This document shows positions 11,561-24,170 of a stretch of 25,843 nucleotides of DNA, piece by piece (the stretch's first letter is position 1; the number at the start of each line of letters is the position of its first letter). The notes beneath the pieces are model-generated. The model was not told the origin of the DNA. It saw nothing but the letters and a program-made list of their open reading frames with translations, and ran no database searches. The position numbers were made by a program, and so were the translations under genes. The stretch covers positions 1 through 25,843 of IMG/VR virus record IMGVR_UViG_3300044941_000237; one strand, written 5' to 3'. This DNA comes from a virus.

Positions 11561-11745
11561 CAGAGCAGCTGGGGAAGTTTGAGCACGAAGTTCTGGAACT
11601 CACTCCCAGCGAATTTGCCCGGTGGTTGGCATATTTCAGGATAAAGGAGAAGGAACAGGCTCGGGCTTACAAGTCCGCACGTAGTAAGACGGCGGCAACA
11701 GCTGCTGGAGGGCAGGGGTCTCCGGGGAGGCGAAGGTGGCGTTAA
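11198..11745 (+). CDS. Tail assembly chaperone, frameshifted long form
   Basis: The gpGT-like product: frame 0 through codon AAC 11519-11521, then -1 frame to TAA 11743-11745, about 182 residues. The -1 part (LFVAEQLGKFEHEVL, LTPSEFARWLAYFRIKEKEQ, then an Arg-rich tail) has the look of the conserved second domain of siphovirus tail chaperones. The -1 frame is closed by TGA at 11509-11511 and open from there on, so the shift must happen after it; the slippery site is the only good one. The end overlaps the start of the tape measure gene. In lambda this ratio is needed for tail assembly. Confidence 0.75.
11515..11521 (+). other. Programmed -1 ribosomal frameshift site GGGAAAC
   Basis: G GGA AAC in the zero frame fits X XXY YYZ, closely related to lambda's GGGAAAG. 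It lies three codons after the last -1 stop. A possible 6 bp stem (CGAAGA 11524-11529 with TCTTCG 11552-11557) lies downstream. Confidence 0.8.
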
Positions 11746-14700
11746 ATATCGGCAGTATCAACTTCGGGCTGGGAGTAAACACCCGGGGGCTCACCAAGTC
11801 TCTCATCGAGATCGTCAAGTTCGGGCATGCAGTAGAACAGGCCTCGCGCCGTACCGGTAAAGGCGTCAAAACTGTTGCAGCCGATTTGCGCCGGCAGGAA
11901 AAGGCAGCTCTTAACGCCGTCCAGCAAATCCTCCAACTCCAGCATCAGCTGAGTAAGGCAAACGCCCCTCCGGCAATGTTTGCAAGCTCAGCCCGCGCTC
12001 TGCGGGAACTGACCCAAGAACTGACCAAAGGGCGTCTAACTGCTCTGGAGTATCAGCGGGCTCTGGAGAAATTCCAGGCAGATTTGGGGAGAAGCAGACG
12101 AGAGCTAGATAACTATATTCGGTCAGCTAAGGAGGGGGTGACACCTACCGAACGACTTGCTGTCAAACTGCGCAATCTGTCGAGCTCTGCTACAATTGCG
12201 CTCGGACCTCTCAGTGGGCTGGGCTCTCGCATCAATGCTTTTGCTAGCATTGCGACTCGCACAAACGTTGCTGTGGCGGGCATGGTTGGGGGGATCATAG
12301 CAGGTTCGGTTGCACTTGCGCGGATGGGGCAGAATGCAGTTACTACTGCTCAAGAGCTCAATCATATCCGTGCAAGGTTCGACATCGTTTCGGGGCCTGC
12401 ATTTGCGACTGCAGATTTCGAACGTGTTCGTCAGATTGCCGAAGCTGCTGGGGCAGAATTTGTTTCTACGGCCAACGCCTTCACCCGCCTGCAGGCTGCT
12501 GCACAAGGCACCGCGCTGCAGGGTGAAGAAGTCGCCCGGATTTTCGAGGATATCGTATTTGGGGCTGCTCGCTTCCAGCTCACAGCGGATGAGCTGGCCG
12601 GTACCCTCAAAGCCTTTGAGCAGATGATATCTAAGGGGATCGTGCAGGCAGAAGAACTCCGTGGGCAATTGGGCGACCGCCTTGTGGGTGCGTTCAACAT
12701 CGCAGCCCAGGCGATGGGGGTTACTACGCGAGAGCTCAACGATATGCTCCGGGCAGGTGATGTTGTTACGGCAGACTTCTTGCCCAAGTTTGCTGCAGCC
12801 TTCCGGGAGGCTCTCGGCACTGATCAGATCGAGCGGGTCGAGACATTCCGCGCGACAATGAACCGGCTGACAAATGCTCAGGCGCACTTTTTTGACCAGC
12901 TGGATAGGACTTTCGGCATCAGCCGTGCATATCAAGCGGCCGTCCAGTCGCTGACCAGCACCTTGAACTTCCTCGCCGATAACATGGAAACCGTCGCAAC
13001 GGCAGCGGCCATGGTATCGGGAGCTCTGCTTGCTCTTGTAGCCCCCACGATTTTGCAGGGACTTGTTCTGCTCGCAGGTCTGATCAAGAAGGTTGGGCTT
13101 GCAGTGGCGGGCTTGAACGCTGTTGCTATGGCCAATCCTATAGGGGCTCTTGCGACTGTACTGGCGCGCCTGGCTCTCATGGCTGGCGGGGCGGCTGCTG
13201 GCTACTATATGATGTCTAAGGGCGCGGAGGCCGCAGCAACAGAGACCGGCGAGCTTATAGACCGTATCAACGAGTTCATAGAGGCTGACCGGAGAGCTTC
13301 GGTTACCCGCAGGCAGCAAGCTCGAGCTTTGATTGACGAACTGCAGGCTCAAATGAACGCCGTTGAAGCGCGGATGCAGAGGCTGCAGAACTTCAATGTA
13401 TTCGGGATGCCACATCTTGATACTGACAGTCTTTCCACTTCACAGGGATTTTTCGAAACGCTCGTCAATGAGGCACGCCGGATCTGGGCTTTGACGACCG
13501 GGAACGCAGTCTCTGTCGAGACGTCACGTGTACTAGAGATAAACAACCTGCGAGAGGAATACGAAGCTCTGGTTCAAGCGATGGAAGCACTTCTGGCACT
13601 CGAAGAGAGACTTCGAGCGGAAGAAGAGGCACAGCAGGCAGCGGGCCAAGAGGCTGCTAATAGGCGGGTGCTTGGAGCGCAGCGGCAAATTGCGCGTATT
13701 CTGGCTGAAGCAACTGCCACTAGAGGTCTTGCAGGAGAGGTTGAACGCCTTCAAGCTATATATAGAGATGTTGACGCCATTAAGCAGTTCCGTGAAGGCC
13801 TGCGCGAGCTGACGGAGGATCAAAGAACTATCAATGAATTGACTGCGCAATATGCGGCAGCACTGAGTGCTCTGCGACAGGCGAACGCTCAGACTGCTGT
13901 CGATGATGCTAATAAACAAATTGATCGTATGCGTTTGACGTATGCGGCTATGGCAGAAGGGCCAGAAGCTGTCGAAGCTCTGAACAAAGCTTTTCAGGAT
14001 GCAGATGCCGTCGAAGAATTTGGTGCCCGCCTTCGGGCCAGAGGAGTAGATTTGGCAAGAGTTGCAGTTCTAACTGAGCTCTTTGCTTTCTGGCAACAAA
14101 AGCTGAATGAACAGCAGGAAGAAGCTATTCGGCTTGCACGCGATCAGAATGTTACTAAAGCCTTCGAGAATGCTAATCGTGAAATAGCCTCTATGCAGCG
14201 CCTACTCGATGCTTTCGATGCCGGCGGTCTGATCGGCTTGGAAAAACAACAAGACATAGAATCAATTACTCGTCAGGTGGAGGCTCTGAGGCAGAGTTTT
14301 ATTGATGCAGGGGCTGCAGCCGACGACCCGAGAATTGCCGCTACTCTAGAGCAGTACGCCAACCTGCTGGAAACCCTCGCCCGAACGCGTGAGCCGGCGG
14401 CTCTGGCTGAAGCGCAGCGGCAAATTGAACGTATCTCAGCTGAAGCAGCTGCTACCAGGGGCCTTGCAGGAGAGGTCGAACGCCTCCAAGCCCAGTTCAG
14501 AGATGTCGATGCCATTGAACAGTTCCGCGAAAGGCTGAGCAGCGTGGTGCAAAACCAGGAAGTTGTCAATGAACTGGTTAGCCAATTTGCATCGGCATTG
14601 GGTGCTCTGCAGCAGGCGAATGCCCAGAATGCTGTCGACGATATAACCAGACAGATTGACCGCATGCGTTTGACGTATGAGGCTATGAAAGAGGGTCCAG

Positions 14701-17684
14701 AAGCTGTCGAAGCTCTTAACAGAGCCTTTCAGGATGCGGACGCTATCGAGCAGCATCGTGCTCGCCTCGTGGCTGCAGGAGTATCTCTGGAAGAAGCCAT
14801 AAATCTAACCGAGCTCCTTACTTTCTGGCAGCAAAAGCTGAATGAACAGCAGGAAGAAGCTAATCGACTCGCCCGCAAGCAGAATATTGCCAAAGCCTTC
14901 AAGGACGCTAATCGTGAAATAGCCTCTATGCAGCGTCTGCTTGATGCTTTCAATGTGGGTGGTTTGGCGGGCTTGGAAAAGCAACAAGACATAGAATCAA
15001 TTACTCGCCAGGTAGAGGCTCTGAGGCAGAGTTTTATTAGTGCAGGGGCTGCTGCTGACGATCCCAGAATTGCCGCTGCCCTAGAGCAGTACGCCAACCT
15101 GCTGGAAGCTTTAGAAAATGCTCGACGGCAAGCTGCTCTGGAGCAGGCTCTGAACGATTACGCCCGTGAAATGGATAACCTGGGCCGCAGAATCGCTGCC
15201 GCTCGTATCAGTGCAGAAGCCCTAGCTAATGTCGATGCCGCCATCGCCATTGAAGAGCAGGTTGAACAGATGCGTCAGGCGCTTGTGGCGGCAGGTAATG
15301 AGGCCGAAGTTGCTGCTGAAAAGGCTCGCGCGTATGGCGAGGCCCTTGCCCTTCTGCACAGGCTAATGGAGAGATTCAACACTTCGGCAGATTCGACGCC
15401 GGCAAGGCTGCAGGATATTCAGCAGGCACTTGCAGAAGTTCAGGCACAGGCACTCGCGTCGAGCCTGGATCGTAACATCGACCGTCAGACGCGTATGATT
15501 CAGGCAGTTGCCTCCTTTACTAGGCTTGTAGCCGAATCGGGCATCAAAGGGGCTAGGGCGTCCCAAATGATTCGGGCGTACGCCGAAGCCCTCGTCCAGA
15601 TTGATACTGCTGAAGCCCGCAGGCAAATCGATGACATTCTAGACACTCTCCGGGAGTATCAAGACGAGCTGGCCGCCATGCAGCAAGGGCCAGATTTCTA
15701 CAAGGCTTTCACTGAGTCGCGGGGGGCTATCTCCGCGATAATCCAGTTCCGCGATAGCCTACGTGCTGCAGGCGTCAGCATTTCTGACACCAACAGACTT
15801 ACCCGCGAATTGGTGCGGACCCTAAATGAACTGGAACGCCAGCGCGCTGCCAACCGCCTGCAAGAAGCGTTTGCGGATGCTGACAAAGAGCTAGAAGTCA
15901 TGCAACGGCGTATCGACGCAATGCGCCGAGGACCGCAGGCTCTCGCACGCCTGGATGCCCAGCTGGACATCGAGCGCCGGGTAGAAGAGTTCCGCCGTAG
16001 GCTGCAGGAAGCAGCCGCAAGTCAACAGCTCTTGGAAAACGCGTTCGATCTGCCTGAAACCATTGCCACGACTGAGGCAGCAGCCGACAAACTGCGGATT
16101 GCCCTCGAACGTATTGGCCATCTGTCTGGACTCGATGCCGGCGTGCTCGAACTGATTACCAGCCTTGATGAGGCAATCGAACGGGTCGGCATTCTCAGCG
16201 GAGACCTTTCAAATATGGGCGCAGTTTCTGTCGCCCCAGCCAATCTCACCGCGACTCCTCAGGCTGCGACATCTGCACTGACGTCTTTGACTGGAGAGCA
16301 ATCGCGTCTGGTAACCCCAGATGCTGGTAGAAATATGAGCGCGCTGCTGGACAATCAGTTCCGGCGGATGCAAGAGATTTTTGGGCAGCCAATCACGATT
16401 ACGGACGCCATCGCGAGAGCTGGAACATCCCGTGAGATCCAAACTCCCAATTCCCAGCATTTTTACGGCCGTGCACTGGATCTCAGCCTTCAAGGCATGG
16501 ATAACGCTACCCGTATCAGACTGGTGCAGGCTGCACTGGCTGCCGGCTTTACCGGATTTGGATTCGGCGAGAACATCCTGCATGTGGATATCGGCCCGCG
16601 CCGGTCTTGGGCTTATGGCAACACCGAATTCGCTGGCCGCCCTGTGGCCGAAATGCGGCAGATGGTTTCTGGGGCAGGTGCGGCAAGTTCCTCCAACATA
16701 GCGGTTGTCCCAACAGCCCTCAGCCCCGAAGAGATCGATCGCAGGGTTGCGGCTTATCGTGCGGGCCTGGAAGCCATGGCGGCTGCCGAAAGGGCCTATA
16801 CTCAGGGCACGGCTCTGGCCTCTGCTCAAGAGCGTATCGACCGTCTGCGCGCCGAAGTCGAAGCCTACAGGCAGGGAGCCGCTGCTGTAGAAGCTTTGCA
16901 GGCACAATACGCGCGTCTGGACGAAATCCGTGATTTCCGGAAGAGCCTGGAAGAAGCTGGGATTGCGCAAGAAGTCGTCAATGAAAAGGTTCGTGAATTT
17001 CAGGCCCTGCTAGAGGAGCGGGATGCTCTCCGAAATCGTATAGACGCTTTCAAAGAGTTCATCGACGTCGTCGACAATCAGCTGGTATCGGCACTCGATG
17101 GTGTTTCGAAAGCTTTTGCTGACGTTGTCGTTTCAGGAGAGGGTTTGTCGTCGCTGGCCGATTTGGGACGCCAGGTTGCTAGTGAGATCCTTTCAGCCTT
17201 CTTGAAGCTGTACGTACTGAAGCCCTTGCTGGAAGATATCTTCCCAGGAACGTACGGAGCCGCTAATACAAATGCTGCTCCTGGACAGGTAACGACGTCT
17301 GGAGGAGGCGGATTTTTCGGAGTTATTACGAACGCTCTCGCAGGACTGTTCGGCACAATTTTCTCGCGCAAGGGGAACGTGTTCCGAGAAGGCATCCTCC
17401 AGGATGTCAGGATGTATCGGAGGGGCGGGATCCTATCTGGGCCCACTCTCTTCACCACTGCCGGCGGCCCCGCTATAGGCGGGGAGGCGGGTGATGAAGC
17501 CATTGTGCCTTTGGTGAGGGATTCAAGCGGTAATCTGGGTATCCGAGCTATTGGGGCGTCGAGAACGACCGTTGTAAACTTCAACTTCCCGCCCGGCACT
17601 GATGTTACGGCGTTCAGGAAGTCAGAAGCCCAGCTGGCAGCAATGGCAAGCAGAGTTGTGAGTAGGGGGATCGGTTCTCTATGA
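11736..17684 (+). CDS. Tape measure protein with embedded M15 peptidase
   Basis: A 1982-residue tail length ruler. Residues ~190-390 resemble the tape measure N-terminal domain (VQAEELRGQLGDRLVGAF). Hydrophobic segments lie near 174-197, 420-455 and 470-494, as expected for a protein that enters the host envelope. Residues ~640-1450 are helical repeats, including an exact 245-residue tandem unit. Residues ~1545-1640 carry an M15-type D-Ala-D-Ala peptidase motif: S1573-x-H1575-x2-G1578-x-A1580-x-D1582 and H1616-V-D1618, the zinc ligands being H1575, D1582 and H1616. The C-terminus (RRGGILSGPTLFTTAGG, GGEAGDEAIVPL) is typical of tape measures. GTG is taken as start, with GGAGG five bases upstream. 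It would cut peptidoglycan during DNA entry. Confidence 0.92.
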   Translation: MALNIGSINFGLGVNTRGLTKSLIEIVKFGHAVEQASRRTGKGVKTVAADLRRQEKAALNAVQQILQLQHQLSKANAPPAMFASSARALRELTQELTKGRLTALEYQRALEKFQADLGRSRRELDNYIRSAKEGVTPTERLAVKLRNLSSSATIALGPLSGLGSRINAFASIATRTNVAVAGMVGGIIAGSVALARMGQNAVTTAQELNHIRARFDIVSGPAFATADFERVRQIAEAAGAEFVSTANAFTRLQAAAQGTALQGEEVARIFEDIVFGAARFQLTADELAGTLKAFEQMISKGIVQAEELRGQLGDRLVGAFNIAAQAMGVTTRELNDMLRAGDVVTADFLPKFAAAFREALGTDQIERVETFRATMNRLTNAQAHFFDQLDRTFGISRAYQAAVQSLTSTLNFLADNMETVATAAAMVSGALLALVAPTILQGLVLLAGLIKKVGLAVAGLNAVAMANPIGALATVLARLALMAGGAAAGYYMMSKGAEAAATETGELIDRINEFIEADRRASVTRRQQARALIDELQAQMNAVEARMQRLQNFNVFGMPHLDTDSLSTSQGFFETLVNEARRIWALTTGNAVSVETSRVLEINNLREEYEALVQAMEALLALEERLRAEEEAQQAAGQEAANRRVLGAQRQIARILAEATATRGLAGEVERLQAIYRDVDAIKQFREGLRELTEDQRTINELTAQYAAALSALRQANAQTAVDDANKQIDRMRLTYAAMAEGPEAVEALNKAFQDADAVEEFGARLRARGVDLARVAVLTELFAFWQQKLNEQQEEAIRLARDQNVTKAFENANREIASMQRLLDAFDAGGLIGLEKQQDIESITRQVEALRQSFIDAGAAADDPRIAATLEQYANLLETLARTREPAALAEAQRQIERISAEAAATRGLAGEVERLQAQFRDVDAIEQFRERLSSVVQNQEVVNELVSQFASALGALQQANAQNAVDDITRQIDRMRLTYEAMKEGPEAVEALNRAFQDADAIEQHRARLVAAGVSLEEAINLTELLTFWQQKLNEQQEEANRLARKQNIAKAFKDANREIASMQRLLDAFNVGGLAGLEKQQDIESITRQVEALRQSFISAGAAADDPRIAAALEQYANLLEALENARRQAALEQALNDYAREMDNLGRRIAAARISAEALANVDAAIAIEEQVEQMRQALVAAGNEAEVAAEKARAYGEALALLHRLMERFNTSADSTPARLQDIQQALAEVQAQALASSLDRNIDRQTRMIQAVASFTRLVAESGIKGARASQMIRAYAEALVQIDTAEARRQIDDILDTLREYQDELAAMQQGPDFYKAFTESRGAISAIIQFRDSLRAAGVSISDTNRLTRELVRTLNELERQRAANRLQEAFADADKELEVMQRRIDAMRRGPQALARLDAQLDIERRVEEFRRRLQEAAASQQLLENAFDLPETIATTEAAADKLRIALERIGHLSGLDAGVLELITSLDEAIERVGILSGDLSNMGAVSVAPANLTATPQAATSALTSLTGEQSRLVTPDAGRNMSALLDNQFRRMQEIFGQPITITDAIARAGTSREIQTPNSQHFYGRALDLSLQGMDNATRIRLVQAALAAGFTGFGFGENILHVDIGPRRSWAYGNTEFAGRPVAEMRQMVSGAGAASSSNIAVVPTALSPEEIDRRVAAYRAGLEAMAAAERAYTQGTALASAQERIDRLRAEVEAYRQGAAAVEALQAQYARLDEIRDFRKSLEEAGIAQEVVNEKVREFQALLEERDALRNRIDAFKEFIDVVDNQLVSALDGVSKAFADVVVSGEGLSSLADLGRQVASEILSAFLKLYVLKPLLEDIFPGTYGAANTNAAPGQVTTSGGGGFFGVITNALAGLFGTIFSRKGNVFREGILQDVRMYRRGGILSGPTLFTTAGGPAIGGEAGDEAIVPLVRDSSGNLGIRAIGASRTTVVNFNFPPGTDVTAFRKSEAQLAAMASRVVSRGIGSL
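13677..14411 (+). repeat. Tape measure 735 bp tandem unit, copy 1
   Basis: In-frame unit of 735 bp (245 residues) starting GCGCAGCGGCAAATT. The next copy starts at 14412. Encoded marks in order: RGLAGEVERLQA, QIDRMRLTY, FWQQKLNEQQEEA, NREIASMQRLLDAF, EKQQDIESITRQVEALRQSF, LEQYANLLE. Confidence 0.85.
14412..15146 (+). repeat. Tape measure 735 bp tandem unit, copy 2
   Basis: Second copy of the unit at 13677, most alike in its last third. The right boundary is approximate; similarity fades near ALENARRQAALEQA. More degenerate ~80-residue relatives continue to about 16050. Confidence 0.8.
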
Positions 17685-18316
17685 GCGACTTCCACGAAGT
17701 AAGATTTCCCGAAAAGATCTCCTACGGCTCTACCGGCGGTCCGATGCGCAGGGTCGATATAGTCACTCTCGCCAGCGGCTTTGAGGAGCGTAACAGCCCT
17801 TGGGCACATGCTCGACATAAATATAATGTCGGCTATGGGATTCGGAATCTATCTCAGGCCTACGAGGTTGTGGAGTTTTTCCAGGCCCGTGAAGGAAAGC
17901 TTTACGGGTTTAGGTACAAAGATTGGGCCGATTACAAATCTTGCCCTGTACACCAGGTTCCTACCAAAGACGATCAGGTTCTGGGTACGGGCAACGGCAC
18001 CATAACGCAATTCCAGTTGCGGAAGGCCTATACTGATACCGGCAACACCTACTACAGAACAATCACCAAGCCTGTGGCAGGCACTGTATTGGTGTCCCTC
18101 AACGGCACTCTCCAAACTCCGGGAACGCACTACACTATCAACAACAATACCGGCGTTATCACGTTCATGACAGCGCCAGGTAACGGCGTGATTGTGAGAG
18201 CTGGATTTGAATTTGACGTTCCTGTGCGCTTCGATACTGATTGGTTGCCTATCAATCTGGCTAACTATGAAGCTGGGGAGTTTTCGGATATCCCGCTGAT
18301 CGAGGTGAGAGTCTAG
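17681..18316 (+). CDS. Distal tail protein, DUF2460 (GTA gp12-like)
   Basis: A 211-residue protein starting with ATGA overlapping the tape measure stop. FHEVRFPEKISYGSTGGP, RVDIVTLASGFEERNSPWAHARHKYNVGYG and FFQAREGKLYGFRYKDWADY are hallmarks of DUF2460. The C-terminal half has strands GTVLVSLNGTLQ, GVITFMTAPG and FDVPVRFDTDWL. In R. capsulatus GTA the homologue (gp12) is the distal tail ring joining tube to hub; the same order of genes follows here. Confidence 0.93.
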   Translation: MSDFHEVRFPEKISYGSTGGPMRRVDIVTLASGFEERNSPWAHARHKYNVGYGIRNLSQAYEVVEFFQAREGKLYGFRYKDWADYKSCPVHQVPTKDDQVLGTGNGTITQFQLRKAYTDTGNTYYRTITKPVAGTVLVSLNGTLQTPGTHYTINNNTGVITFMTAPGNGVIVRAGFEFDVPVRFDTDWLPINLANYEAGEFSDIPLIEVRV

Positions 18317-18317
18317 A

Positions 18318-19226
18318 ATGAAGACGATTCCTGCACAAATGCAAGCCGATCTGGATGGCCGTGCTACAAAGCACTGCTACTGCTGGCGCCTCGACCTCAA
18401 GAACGGCACCACCCTCGGATTTACCGACCACGATCGGGATCTGGTTTTCGACTCCGTCACCTACAAGGCTCTGACGGGCATGGACGCTTCTGCCATCAGC
18501 AATAGCCGGAATCTGAATGTCGATGACATGGACGTTATTGGCAGGCTGAGCGATACTAGTATCAAGGACTCCGACATTGCTGCGGGTGTGTATGATGGTG
18601 CCATGGTTACAATCTATAAGGTAGATTGGCAGGCTGTAACCAATCGTGTCATTTTGATGCGTGGACCTTTAGGGAAAATCTCACGTGGGCAAATTGCTTA
18701 CAAGGCACAGATAAAGAGTTTGACGGCATATGCCAGCCAGAATATCGGCAGTACATACTCTCCCAAATGCCGCTGGACCTTGGGTGAAGGCATTTGCGGG
18801 CTGGGAGTCAACCTGAATACGAGTGCCTATAGAGACACTGGCCTGGTAGTTTCGGCCGCCCTCAGCAAGAGGGTATTCCAGACTCAGAGCCCCGGGGCGC
18901 TCGCTCGTGAAGAAGACTTCTACATGAACGGCAAAGTTGTCTGGACTTCGGGAGACAATAACACCTACAAGATGTGGGTAAGGTACAACAAAATCACGTC
19001 GACAGAAGCGCACTTCGAGCTGTTTGAGAACATGCCCAACGACATCCAGGTGGGAGATGTCTTTACAGCGTATGCAGGATGCCAAAAGACGATCGAAATC
19101 TGCCATACGAAGTTTTCGAACGTGGTCAACTTTGGTGGATTTCCGCGCATTCCCGGACCAGATTTTATTCTGAGTCATGCGGCCAGCACGGAGGATAACA
19201 ATGGCGGATCTCTTTATCAATCCTGA
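18318..19226 (+). CDS. Tail hub protein, DUF2163 (GTA gp13-like)
   Basis: A 302-residue protein. The N-terminus (CYCWRLDLKNGTTLGFTDHDRDL) and DDMDVIGRLSD are typical of DUF2163. The C-terminal half has four Cys, C151 and C160 (SPKCRWTLGEGICG) and C255 and C262 (AGCQKTIEICHTKFSN), then NFGGFPRIPGPDF. The layout matches lambda gpL and the GTA hub, where such cysteines hold an iron-sulfur cluster; a cluster here is therefore likely but inferred. The gene starts one base after the previous stop and ends inside the next gene's 5' end. Confidence 0.93.
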   Translation: MKTIPAQMQADLDGRATKHCYCWRLDLKNGTTLGFTDHDRDLVFDSVTYKALTGMDASAISNSRNLNVDDMDVIGRLSDTSIKDSDIAAGVYDGAMVTIYKVDWQAVTNRVILMRGPLGKISRGQIAYKAQIKSLTAYASQNIGSTYSPKCRWTLGEGICGLGVNLNTSAYRDTGLVVSAALSKRVFQTQSPGALAREEDFYMNGKVVWTSGDNNTYKMWVRYNKITSTEAHFELFENMPNDIQVGDVFTAYAGCQKTIEICHTKFSNVVNFGGFPRIPGPDFILSHAASTEDNNGGSLYQS

Positions 19227-19698
19227 TCGTATCCTCGAAATCGCACGATCGTGGATCGGCACACCTTATCGGCACCAGCACTCGTTAAAGGGGGTTGGTG
19301 CCGATTGTCTCGGGCTGCTCCGAGGCGTTTGGAAAGAGCTGTATGGGGTTGAGGCTGAAGTTCCTCCGCCTTATACGCGGGATTGGGCAGAGCTCCGCAG
19401 TGGGACGGGCGGGGAACCTATGCTGGAAGCCGCCGAGCGCAATCTGCATAGGATCGAGCTTGCAGAAGTCTCCCCAGGAGATGTAGTTTTGATACGGGTG
19501 CGTCCTACCGCACTAATCAAGCATTGCGGTATCATCTCGGAGACCGCCCCGATTAAAAACATTCGCGACTGTCCAGTACATCGTCTCATTCATGCATATT
19601 CTCTGCACGCCGTGACAGAAGACTACATGCACAGCAACTGGCTGGACAAAGAGATGCACTTTTTCCGATTCAAAGAGATTTCGGAGGTCGTACGCTAA
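19201..19698 (+). CDS. NlpC/P60 tail peptidase (GTA gp14-like)
   Basis: A 165-residue cell-wall peptidase. The catalytic Cys is C36 in GADCLGLLRGVWKEL, the His is H108 in LIKHCGII, and H131 in LIHAYSLHAV is the likely third residue. The conserved start (FINPDRILEIARSWIGTPYRHQ) and PPPYTRDWAE match phage NlpC/P60 proteins of the GTA gp14 type. The frame extends to an upstream ATG at 19177, but GGAGG six bases before ATG 19201 favours the shorter form. The 3' end overlaps the next start by one base. It should cleave cross-link peptides at the site of attachment. Confidence 0.92.
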   Translation: MADLFINPDRILEIARSWIGTPYRHQHSLKGVGADCLGLLRGVWKELYGVEAEVPPPYTRDWAELRSGTGGEPMLEAAERNLHRIELAEVSPGDVVLIRVRPTALIKHCGIISETAPIKNIRDCPVHRLIHAYSLHAVTEDYMHSNWLDKEMHFFRFKEISEVVR

Positions 19699-22600
19699 TG
19701 GCTACGCTCTTCCTTGTGGCAGGTGCGAAGTACGTCGCAACCAGCTTTGCGCTGAACTCTTTTGCGTCGGCCGCGCTTATCACCGGAGCATCGCTGATAG
19801 GTTCCTACATTGACAGTAAGCTCTTCGGCCAGACAGTCAGTCAAGAAGGCCCACGTCTAGATGAAGTCCGGTTTACAGGATCTTCTCATACTGCCCCCAT
19901 AGCACGTGTGGGAGGGCGCTTCCGTATTGCAGGAAATATTATCTGGTCGACTCGCTACCGGGAAGAGGTTGTGACTGAGACAGGGTCTTCCGGGGGAAAG
20001 GGCCTGAGCAGAACGAGAACTAAATCTACCACCTACAATTATTATGTCTCTTTTGCAGTTGGGCTGTGTGAAGGGCCTATCTACGACATCGGGCGCATTT
20101 GGGCCGACAACAGACTGCTGGACGGAGAGGATTATACGATTCGCAAATATTATGGCACAAACACGCAAATGCCCGATCCCAAGATCGTCGCCGTTGAAGG
20201 TGCGGCATTTACCCCTGCTTATCGCGGGCTGGCCTATATCGTTTTTGAAGAGCTTCACCTGGAGGAGTTCGGCAACCGCATTCCGCAGATTAATGTGGAA
20301 GTCATTGCGTCTAATGCCGATAGCATGGAGAAGTACGAAGATCGTCTTGCTGCTGTCGACATGATTCCGGCGGCAGGAGAATTTTGTTACGGGACAACTC
20401 CTGTCTATACGGGGAAGGGAGATGCTAAAGTCTATGAAAATCGCCACTCCTACGGCACGGAATCTGACTTGCAGCAGTCGGTCGGAAAGCTACTCCGCAC
20501 CGCTCCCAACTGCTCGCGAGTAGCTCTTGTCGTAGCTTGGCACGGAACCGATTTGCGCTGTAATCACTGCCAACTGCAGCCTCGAGTAGAGGCAGACGCA
20601 ACTACAGACAAGAAGGTTACTAGGCCCTATGCTTGGAAGGTATCGGGAATCGGTCGAGCCGGGGCGACAAAAGTCTCAGTTGATGCCGATGGGGCTATTT
20701 ACTTGGGTGGAGCCCCCGCCGACCGAGCCGTCTACGAGGCTATAGTCTACTTGAAAAGCAAGGGGCTTGACGTAGTCTTTTACCCGTTCATCTTGATGGA
20801 TATCCCGCCAGGCAATACTCTTACAGATCCGTATTCCAACACCTCGGGGCAGCCCGCTTTTCCGTGGCGCGGCCGTATCACGCTGAGTCTTGCGCCTGGT
20901 GTAGCAGGATCTCCCAACCGTACTTCTACTGCCCGGACGCAGGTGGAAACCTTCTTTGGAACTTGTCTGCCGTCACATTTCGCGGCGTACGGGGGTAACG
21001 CAAACGATACGGCCAACGAGAACGATTCGAACACCTTCAAAGAAGGCACTATCAGCAACACTCCTATTCCGTCGCCGCCTCCAGGAACAGAGCACAACAC
21101 TATCAAGTATACTGGGCCGAATGAGTGGTCGTATAGACGCATGATCCTCCACTATGCCAAATTGTGTGCCAGCGTCCCTGGAGGGGTCTACGGCTTTATT
21201 ATCGGCTCTGAAATGGTCGGTCTGAACAAGATTCAGGACAATGCTGGGGCATTTCCGGCAGTTGACAAGTTCGTAGAACTAGCTGCCGACGTGCGTTCTA
21301 TACTCGGCCCCAACGTAAAGATTACGTATGCGGCCGACTGGAGCGAGTGGTCGAATTATCGGCCAAGCAATGGGTCCGGAGACGTTTACTGGCCGCTGGA
21401 CAAGCTTTGGGCATCTGCCAACATCGATGCGATCGGCATCGACAACTACATGCCTCTATCAGATTGGCGATCTACTGCAGATCATCTGGATGCTGATGAC
21501 TACGATAGCATCTACGACTTGGACTATCTGAAGGGCAATATTGCGGGCGGTGAGGGCTATGATTGGTACTACGCCAGCACAAGCAATCGCGACAACCAGA
21601 TCCGCACGCCCATTACCGATACGGCCTACAACAAGCACTGGGTCTTCCGCTACAAAGACATTGTGAGCTGGTGGCAGAATACCCATATCACGCGCATTCT
21701 GGGTGTAGAAGGCCACCCCATTCTTCAGGGGCGGGTTGCATCTAATTACACCACGGCCTCCGACACCACCGTGACGGCGGATTACGGTGTAGATGCCTTC
21801 GATAACCGCACTGTTCGGGTACAGCACAACAACAATACTACGGCATATTATCGCCGCAGCAACCTATCTGTTACGAACGGGGCTACGTACAGGCTGATCG
21901 TCCGGATGCGTACCGTCGGCGGCGGCGCACAGACTACTTACCTCAACATCCAAGACAGCCAGCACAACCGGCAGCTTATCAACGTCACTGGGTCCTGGCA
22001 AACGTTTGTGCTTCAGCGGACGGTCAACAGCTCGACAGTCCACGTGTATCCGTCGGATCCTCGGGGCGGATCAGGCTCTCCCAACTGCGATCTTGAAATT
22101 GCTGTCGCAGCTTTTGTGCGGGTTGGGGGGACTACTGAGTGGGTTGCGCAGAGCAAGCCGATCTGGTTTACTGAACTTGGATGTCCGGCTGTGCAGTTCG
22201 GGTCGAACCAGCCGAATGTGTTCTATGATCCCAAGTCGTCGGAGAGCTTCTTCCCATACTATTCTAATGGATCCCGCGACGACTACATCCAACGTCAATT
22301 CAATAAGGCACACCTGGAGTATTGGTCAGATAACCAGGGAACAGCCCTGAACCCTACGGGCATGGTTGATCCCAGTCACATCTTCATCTGGACCTGGGAT
22401 GCACGCCCCTTCCCGGAATTTCCTTCCCGCTCGGATGTGTGGGACGACTCTGAAAATTGGCGTTTGGGCCATTGGATAAATGGACGTCTGGCCGTTCCGG
22501 AAATAGGCGACTACATTGTCTCACTATTCGATCAGGCTGGACTGGATTCCCAGTACATAGACGTATCGGAGGTACATGGTCTGATTAGCGGCTTTGCTGT

Positions 22601-24170
22601 TACCCAGACTAACACTGTCCGCGACATGCTGGATCCTATCATGTTTACTAATCTGCTTCAGGCTTATGAGTCCGAAGGTAAATTGAAGTTCCGGCATAAA
22701 GGTAACAAGTCTGTTGGGACTGTAAACTTCGAGAACTTGGTCGCAGATGAAGAAGGTGCTGACAGTCTTGGAGGGCCCGTGACCGTCACCCGCTCGGACG
22801 ATCTTGAGCTACCTCAAGAAGTCCGGATCTCTTTCGTTGATGACAACACCACCTACGAAAGCAGTGTTGCTTACTACAGAAACCCTGTTGGATACAGCAA
22901 CACGGTGTCTGAGTCGAACGTCAACGTTCTTATGGATTTTGCCTACGCTGAAGATTTGTGTGCGCGCCTTCTACAAGAGGTGTACATCGCGCGTGAAAAG
23001 CTGACTTTCAAGATGCCTCCGTCAATGCTGCGGTTTGATCCTACGGACGTCATCGATCTTGATGTTTACGGCCGGACGTATACAGTCACACTTGAATCGA
23101 TCAATGAAGAATATCAACGGGAGGTGACCGCCTCTAAATACGATGCGGACGTGTTTATACCTGTCGCAGCCGAGGCGCCTAAATCTAAAGTACCCGCAGC
23201 GATTGTCGGCCAGGATACCGTGCTGGAGATTCTGAACTTGCCCATACTGCATTCAAGTGCTTCTCCCTCCGGAGTGTACTTTGCGGCAGCCGGCAAGCCT
23301 TGGAATCAGGGCGTAGCTGTTATGCGGAGCCCCAATAACGTTGTTTACCAGCCCGATGTCACAGTTGAAGCTCCTAGTATCATAGGCGTCACCGACTTTG
23401 CTCTTCCTGCCGGGCCCGCCGGCCGCTGGGACAAAGGTACCGAATTGTTCGTAACTGTAAACAGCGCCGGGACCCTCGATACTGTGTCCAACAGTGCCGT
23501 TTTCCAGGGGTTCAACGCAGCGGCGCTGTATAATGCGGCAGCTGGGCAGTGGGAGGTGATCCAATGGAAGACCGCTCAGGCAGTGGCTACTAATAGGTAC
23601 AAGCTGACAAATCTCATCCGGGGACAACTGGGGACTGAAAAAGCGATTGGCAATCCACTTCCGGCAGGAAGCCGCTTCGTCGTGCTCGATCCTACGCGGA
23701 TTGTCCAGTCTACAGGAGGAGCTAATCTTATCGGGCTGACTCTGCACTGGAAGTTCGGCCCTGCACATCTTGCGAGCGATTCCGACAGTTGGAAGACAGC
23801 CACTGCCAAAGTGAAGGGTTTTGGTTATCGGCCTTACAGCCCGTGCAGCCTGAAAGCCACCAAGCAGTTCGGCAATAACGACATCCTGCTAGATTGGAAG
23901 CGGCGCACTCGTTTCAACGGAGACGTGTGGGATGGCTCGGATGTGCCTCTGAATGAAGACTTCGAGAAGTATGAAGTCGATGTCTACAACGGCAACAACG
24001 TCGTACGTACGATTACCGTCACTGGTGAAAGTGCTACCGTATATACTTCGGCGATGCAGATAGCCGACTTCGGAGCAGTGCAAAGCAGTATCAAGTTCGA
24101 GGTTTTCCAGATCTCTGCAATCTTCGGCCGGGGTGTGGGGCGTATGGCAATAATTACGTTCCCCGCATGA
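19698..24170 (+). CDS. GTA TIM-barrel tail-tip protein (gp15-like) with inserted domain
   Basis: A 1490-residue baseplate/host specificity protein. A hydrophobic N-terminus (SFASAALITGASLIGSYID) is followed by RLDEVRFTGSSHTAPIARVGG type strands. The GTA TIM-barrel domain spans ~470-860, with YAADWSEW (E550), IDAIGIDNYMPLSDWR and WFTELGCPAVQFG (E826), the likely glycosidase acids. Between ITRILGVEG and WVAQSKPIWFTELG, where related proteins have a short link, about 140 residues (669-812) are inserted with a beta-sandwich, carbohydrate-binding-like look. The C-terminal half (SEVHGLISGFAVTQ onward) is the phage tail protein region ending in fibronectin-like strands. In GTA this protein forms the tail spike core and contacts the cell. 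Confidence 0.92.
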   Translation: MATLFLVAGAKYVATSFALNSFASAALITGASLIGSYIDSKLFGQTVSQEGPRLDEVRFTGSSHTAPIARVGGRFRIAGNIIWSTRYREEVVTETGSSGGKGLSRTRTKSTTYNYYVSFAVGLCEGPIYDIGRIWADNRLLDGEDYTIRKYYGTNTQMPDPKIVAVEGAAFTPAYRGLAYIVFEELHLEEFGNRIPQINVEVIASNADSMEKYEDRLAAVDMIPAAGEFCYGTTPVYTGKGDAKVYENRHSYGTESDLQQSVGKLLRTAPNCSRVALVVAWHGTDLRCNHCQLQPRVEADATTDKKVTRPYAWKVSGIGRAGATKVSVDADGAIYLGGAPADRAVYEAIVYLKSKGLDVVFYPFILMDIPPGNTLTDPYSNTSGQPAFPWRGRITLSLAPGVAGSPNRTSTARTQVETFFGTCLPSHFAAYGGNANDTANENDSNTFKEGTISNTPIPSPPPGTEHNTIKYTGPNEWSYRRMILHYAKLCASVPGGVYGFIIGSEMVGLNKIQDNAGAFPAVDKFVELAADVRSILGPNVKITYAADWSEWSNYRPSNGSGDVYWPLDKLWASANIDAIGIDNYMPLSDWRSTADHLDADDYDSIYDLDYLKGNIAGGEGYDWYYASTSNRDNQIRTPITDTAYNKHWVFRYKDIVSWWQNTHITRILGVEGHPILQGRVASNYTTASDTTVTADYGVDAFDNRTVRVQHNNNTTAYYRRSNLSVTNGATYRLIVRMRTVGGGAQTTYLNIQDSQHNRQLINVTGSWQTFVLQRTVNSSTVHVYPSDPRGGSGSPNCDLEIAVAAFVRVGGTTEWVAQSKPIWFTELGCPAVQFGSNQPNVFYDPKSSESFFPYYSNGSRDDYIQRQFNKAHLEYWSDNQGTALNPTGMVDPSHIFIWTWDARPFPEFPSRSDVWDDSENWRLGHWINGRLAVPEIGDYIVSLFDQAGLDSQYIDVSEVHGLISGFAVTQTNTVRDMLDPIMFTNLLQAYESEGKLKFRHKGNKSVGTVNFENLVADEEGADSLGGPVTVTRSDDLELPQEVRISFVDDNTTYESSVAYYRNPVGYSNTVSESNVNVLMDFAYAEDLCARLLQEVYIAREKLTFKMPPSMLRFDPTDVIDLDVYGRTYTVTLESINEEYQREVTASKYDADVFIPVAAEAPKSKVPAAIVGQDTVLEILNLPILHSSASPSGVYFAAAGKPWNQGVAVMRSPNNVVYQPDVTVEAPSIIGVTDFALPAGPAGRWDKGTELFVTVNSAGTLDTVSNSAVFQGFNAAALYNAAAGQWEVIQWKTAQAVATNRYKLTNLIRGQLGTEKAIGNPLPAGSRFVVLDPTRIVQSTGGANLIGLTLHWKFGPAHLASDSDSWKTATAKVKGFGYRPYSPCSLKATKQFGNNDILLDWKRRTRFNGDVWDGSDVPLNEDFEKYEVDVYNGNNVVRTITVTGESATVYTSAMQIADFGAVQSSIKFEVFQISAIFGRGVGRMAIITFPA
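21700..22134 (+). other. Inserted beta-rich domain in TIM-barrel protein
   Basis: Codes for ~140 residues breaking the barrel sequence. Features: VRVQHNNNTTAYYRRS, YRLIVRMRTVGGG, GSWQTFVLQRTV, CDLEIAVAAFVRVGG. The order of strands with W..F.L and a final cluster of hydrophobic strands resembles carbohydrate-binding jelly rolls attached to glycosidases. Assignment is inferred from pattern only. Confidence 0.55.

Follow-up and report, generated by a model that had tools for sequence, protein, structure and literature searches.

The megatron baseplate protein encoded in the window, that is, in the whole 25.8-kb virus record analysed here, carries inside its TIM barrel an insertion of about 139 aa, called module A (positions 21714 to 22130, + strand, approximately residues 673-811). 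This module is probably an independently folding CBM4/CBM22-like beta-sandwich, inserted in a loop and serving as an exchangeable cassette for surface recognition. The loop concerned lies between helix alpha6 and strand beta7; at least five insert families occupy it, in phages and in chromosomal gene transfer agent (GTA) clusters that are collinear with that of RcGTA.

The megatron gene and its insertion

The megatron gene (19698 to 24170, + strand) encodes an RcGTA gp15-like protein of 1,490 aa. Pfam searches of this ORF returned GTA_TIM (2.9e-129), Phage-tail_3 and Rcc01698_C, in that order, and comparison with the PDB gave full-length matches to RcGTA gp15 (6tba, E=2.8e-265) and to the megatron of phage R4C (8gtc, 4e-204); by domain order and full-length similarity, its sequence is that of an RcGTA-type megatron. 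The window has head genes of its own, among them terminase and portal, and a tape measure protein of 1,982 aa (11736-17684), with a peptidase- or endolysin-like stretch (phrog_894, phrog_17373) at residues ~1532-1629, precedes the RcGTA-like baseplate genes. Upstream of the megatron (17681 to 19698, + strand) the RcGTA order of distal tail protein, hub and probable peptidase was found. Genes 5' of the megatron matched DUF2460 (9.6e-82) and Phage_phiJL001_Gp84_N (9.8e-48) together with BR0599 (1.3e-20), and the gene at 19177-19695, whose sole family match was the minor tail family phrog_329 (4.6e-9), is probably the peptidase by its position. Directly 3' of the megatron, a frame open at the contig end (24195-25841) encodes a tail-fibre-like product of 549 aa which had no match in a Pfam search and whose C-terminal part resembles a lectin-type domain.

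In RcGTA, three megatrons and the hub form the baseplate core, and residues 230-744 of the megatron were named the "peripheral" domain (PMC7296036); the function of this TIM-barrel domain has remained unknown according to a 2026 preprint (PMC13420450). The window protein and RcGTA gp15 (Rcc01698; 6tba; PMC7296036) are homologous over their whole length and share the same domain order, but RcGTA gp15 lacks the insert. The phmmer alignment of the two proteins placed window residue 671 on RcGTA residue 635 and then window residue 812 on RcGTA residue 639, and the alignment to the R4C megatron broke at the same point. Since the break falls at one point against both proteins, about 140 residues are extra in the window. 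This confirmed the reading made from the sequence alone, which had seen about 140 residues between neighbouring barrel segments at 21700-22134 and had noted no stop or frame change; the limits were refined to 21714-22130, and the frame is open throughout 19698-24170, with neither stop nor frameshift. The same insert is present in the near-identical contig L002/L003 (93-95%).

The spacing of the junction, measured from WW to the tryptophan-containing end preceding the SKPI strand, was exactly 22 aa in 267 of 308 aligned megatrons, while values of 153-184 aa occurred only among insert carriers (159 in the window). The survey of relatives that had been proposed along with the sequence-only reading showed the insert in a minority of them and its absence from most. 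The converse result, a segment shared by the majority of homologues as part of the barrel, was not obtained since most megatrons lack it. Large inserts were found at the alpha6-beta7 loop in 26 of the 125 rows of the megatron tree, and any other site with at least 60 extra residues was seen in one row each, a concentration at this site that is far beyond chance.

A plain sequence search of the insert against INPHARED phages gave no match, and comparison with the tail-fibre family phrog_16053 gave E=0.01. The low E-values obtained for polyubiquitin chains of the PDB were rejected because they add up recurring chance matches, each worth about 4 bits.

Predicted fold of module A and its place in the barrel

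AlphaFold (AF2) modelling of module A, made from five related module sequences and thus from an alignment of five rows only, gave a confident beta-sandwich of about nine strands (mean pLDDT 83, pTM 0.81), in agreement with the beta-rich character that had been read from the sequence. The Foldseek comparison of this model with the PDB returned 160 matches with E<=1e-3. Most of the best-scoring were CBMs (CBM22, CBM4, CBM16, CBM35 and one porphyran-binding CBM), and Cry-toxin and phage tailspike chains of the same fold were also among the matches. The predicted model is a jelly-roll like those of CBM4 and CBM22, as 4xup, 4bj0 and 1gui were matched at E 1e-5 to 1e-6; 4xup (CBM22) reached a TMq of up to 0.72, and 3k4z was also matched. 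A separate model of 725 aa (residues 216-940) reproduced these CBM matches for the insert. Among viral structure models, the neighbours of module A were CenC-like and tail-fibre proteins.

The predicted fold is thus like that of CBM4 and CBM22 modules, but the window sequence lies below the family cut-offs. The window module had no match to Pfam CBM_4_9, and the module copy of L285 matched this family with E=0.014 and 16.2 bits (curated cut-off, 25.9). Comparison of the module A profile with the PDB gave two matches below E=5, 1gui (listed as CBM4) and 4mgq (labelled as a GH10 protein), so that the sequences agree weakly with a CBM-type fold. In known enzymes, modules of the CBM4/CBM22 type are usually beside the barrel and not inside it. 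The break against RcGTA, the AF2 fold and the CBM matches together bear out the suggestion of a sugar-binding-like domain inside the TIM barrel, and the modelled fold is consistent with glycan binding by module A. Some jelly-roll sandwiches bind proteins, however, and others are purely structural.

The peripheral domain of the window megatron (20343 to 22517, + strand) was predicted by AF2 and Foldseek to be a GH113-like (beta/alpha)8 barrel bearing the insert. The model of residues 216-940, made with 70 relatives (pLDDT 89.3, pTM 0.90), matched chain 8gtc_M (4e-29) and the GH113 beta-1,4-mannanases 5ylh, 4cd6 and 7dvj (TMt 0.65-0.69). Glutamates E505 (21210 to 21212, + strand; predicted acid/base) and E826 (22173 to 22175, + strand; predicted nucleophile), at the ends of beta4 and beta7, respectively, align with E151 and E231 of 4cd6, which we take to be the catalytic pair of that enzyme, and both were invariant in the 125 rows, including all 26 insert-bearing ones. 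The likeness to GH113 is one of modelled fold and of glutamate positions, the sequence match being weak (E=0.017), and it suggests that the barrel may have glycosidase activity.

The strands of the insert are located in the AF2 model between helix alpha6, which ends around IVSWW immediately 5' of the insert (21660 to 21677, + strand; H440-445 of the 216-940 model), and strand beta7, whose motif KPIWFTELGC lies immediately 3' of it (22155 to 22184, + strand; strand E607-612) and is conserved among relatives. The helix-to-strand loops of such barrels face away from the catalytic strand ends. By this topology the module should lie on the face opposite the predicted active site, so its supposed position beside the catalytic cleft, part of the sequence-only reading, was not borne out. 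That reading had led to the idea that the insert widens or lids the cleft and so sets the substrate of the enzyme. Glycosidases are often accompanied by CBM-like domains and the barrel retains both catalytic-type glutamates, as this idea would have it, but we consider it improbable with the insert placed by barrel topology on the opposite face; the inserts of R4C and R5C, in contrast, follow beta4 and beta6.

Insert families, their exchange and gene transfer agents

L285, L286 and L287, which come from Rhodobacterales genomes, also carry module A, with 23-29% identity to the window module. Family B, of ~160 aa, is carried by L004-L016, L083-L092, L236, L269, L316, L318, L321 and L335-L337, family C by L289, family D, a Gly_rich_2 domain of 277 aa (Pfam, 6.6e-25), by L315 and family E by L317 and L333. 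A profile of family B detected all the B members tested (E 8e-90 to 1e-5), recognised none of families A, C, D and E, and gave no match beyond chance against solved structures. Homology of families A and B was not supported, as the B profile misses A and the profile comparison gave a probability of 14.5%.

On the megatron tree, which was built without the insert columns, insert presence or absence changed at least 8 times and insert type 13 times, and the well-supported branches alone require 8 changes of presence or absence. The window clusters with RcZahn and L018 (low support), both of which are insert-free. Comparison of the megatron genes of the GTA pair L317 and L321 showed DNA identities of 80.0% and 79.2% on either side of the insert, while the inserts themselves are unrelated (family E in L317 and family B in L321) and homology ends at the insert; in sequence terms this is a clean cassette swap. 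In the family B pairs L007/L009 and L092/L236 the flanks are 84-88% identical and the inserts 28-38%, and the divergence of the insert exceeded that of the flanks in 95-100% of same-type pairs. The GC content of the inserts gave no sign of recent import. In composition they are close to the gene that hosts them, and the majority of homologues have no insert, as might be expected if the inserts were passengers of recombination, neutral and without function. We find this explanation the hardest to credit, since the frames are intact, similar classes recur at one site only, and the inserts outpace their flanks in divergence yet retain their family motifs.

Eight insert-bearing 19-kb stretches (L323-L326 and L328-L331) were collinear, gene by gene, with the cluster of an insert-free genome, from the head and tail genes through the megatron. 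In seven of the eight, two upstream flanking chromosomal genes also matched, which, judging by their sequence starts, we take to be a beta-ketoacyl-ACP synthase gene and an MltG-like gene. The collinearity and the flanking genes indicate that these stretches are chromosomal RcGTA-type clusters and not only prophages. Of 76 evenly sampled Rhodobacterales genomes, 73 matched the megatron, and an insert at the alpha6-beta7 site was present in no fewer than eight of these 73 (G001, G019, G022, G023, G035, G056, G069 and G075). G001 had inserts in several megatron copies, some of which are probably prophage copies. An open frame of 32,612 aa in G354 was rejected, as it lies in a stretch reading as N.

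We propose that the insert occupies the alpha6-beta7 loop of a trimeric baseplate protein common to RcGTA-like phages and GTAs, and that this loop would be a recurrent cassette site for adhesin-type modules, tolerating foreign domains because it is short, constant in length and across the barrel from the active site. By analogy with the RcGTA and R4C structures, three copies of the module would be displayed per baseplate. They may bind a surface polysaccharide of the recipient (capsule, EPS or LPS) and raise adsorption and, once bound, may keep the barrel with its two catalytic-type glutamates near the glycan, perhaps trimming it. Replacement of the module by recombination would alter the surface recognised and leave the rest of the baseplate undisturbed, with a possible effect on host range.

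A role as a structural spacer or as a dock for another protein, such as an accessory tailspike or fibre, was weighed against glycan binding. Jelly-rolls commonly serve as protein-contact domains in tails. In RcGTA, the tailspike TspA is docked in part on residues 591-599, in a megatron loop nearby (PMC13420450). However, a dock for a single partner should retain one family, whereas at least five families, including Gly_rich_2, are swapped here, and the fold neighbours of module A are largely CBMs; we thus regard a spacer or dock as unlikely. Receptor recognition is the likely role given the fold and the cassette swapping. We give an even chance to a further reading, in which Rhodobacterales phages and domesticated GTAs use the loop as a dedicated cassette site for the exchange of recipient-recognition modules, with a shift in GTA recipient range. 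If this is so, GTAs would alter their recipient range through the swap of one domain in an otherwise conserved virion cluster. The gathering of adhesin-like domains at one loop in phages and GTAs would suggest a role in recipient recognition for the peripheral domain, and the variation of the inserts represents fast change within the GTA virion cluster, which has been described as conserved compared with ectopic loci (PMC13420450).

Inserts in other loops of the barrel

R4C provides a known precedent for a CBM-like insert in a megatron, though in another loop. The extra domain in the peripheral domain of the R4C megatron (8gtc), of CBM11-like topology, was called carbohydrate-binding and comprises residues 482-629, after beta4 (PMC10276861). 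The megatrons of the window and of vB_DshS-R4C belong to the same protein family, share the barrel and both carry a CBM-like insert in the peripheral domain, but the window insert follows alpha6 and no sequence relation between the two inserts was detectable. None of the open-licence papers searched described the alpha6-beta7 site, the number of its insert families, their swapping or their occurrence in GTAs, and these are new relative to that literature.

Phage R5C (L164) carries a LamG/ConA-like insert of 187 aa (PF13385, 5.9e-5) in the beta6-alpha6 stretch, after the equivalent of window residue 645, on which no remark was found in the literature searched. In L338 (G357) the N-terminal region of the barrel, corresponding to window residues 215-430, is longer by ~170 residues, possibly another inserted domain, and L029, L114 and L250 share an insert of 82-93 aa in a different loop, near the equivalent of window residue 300.
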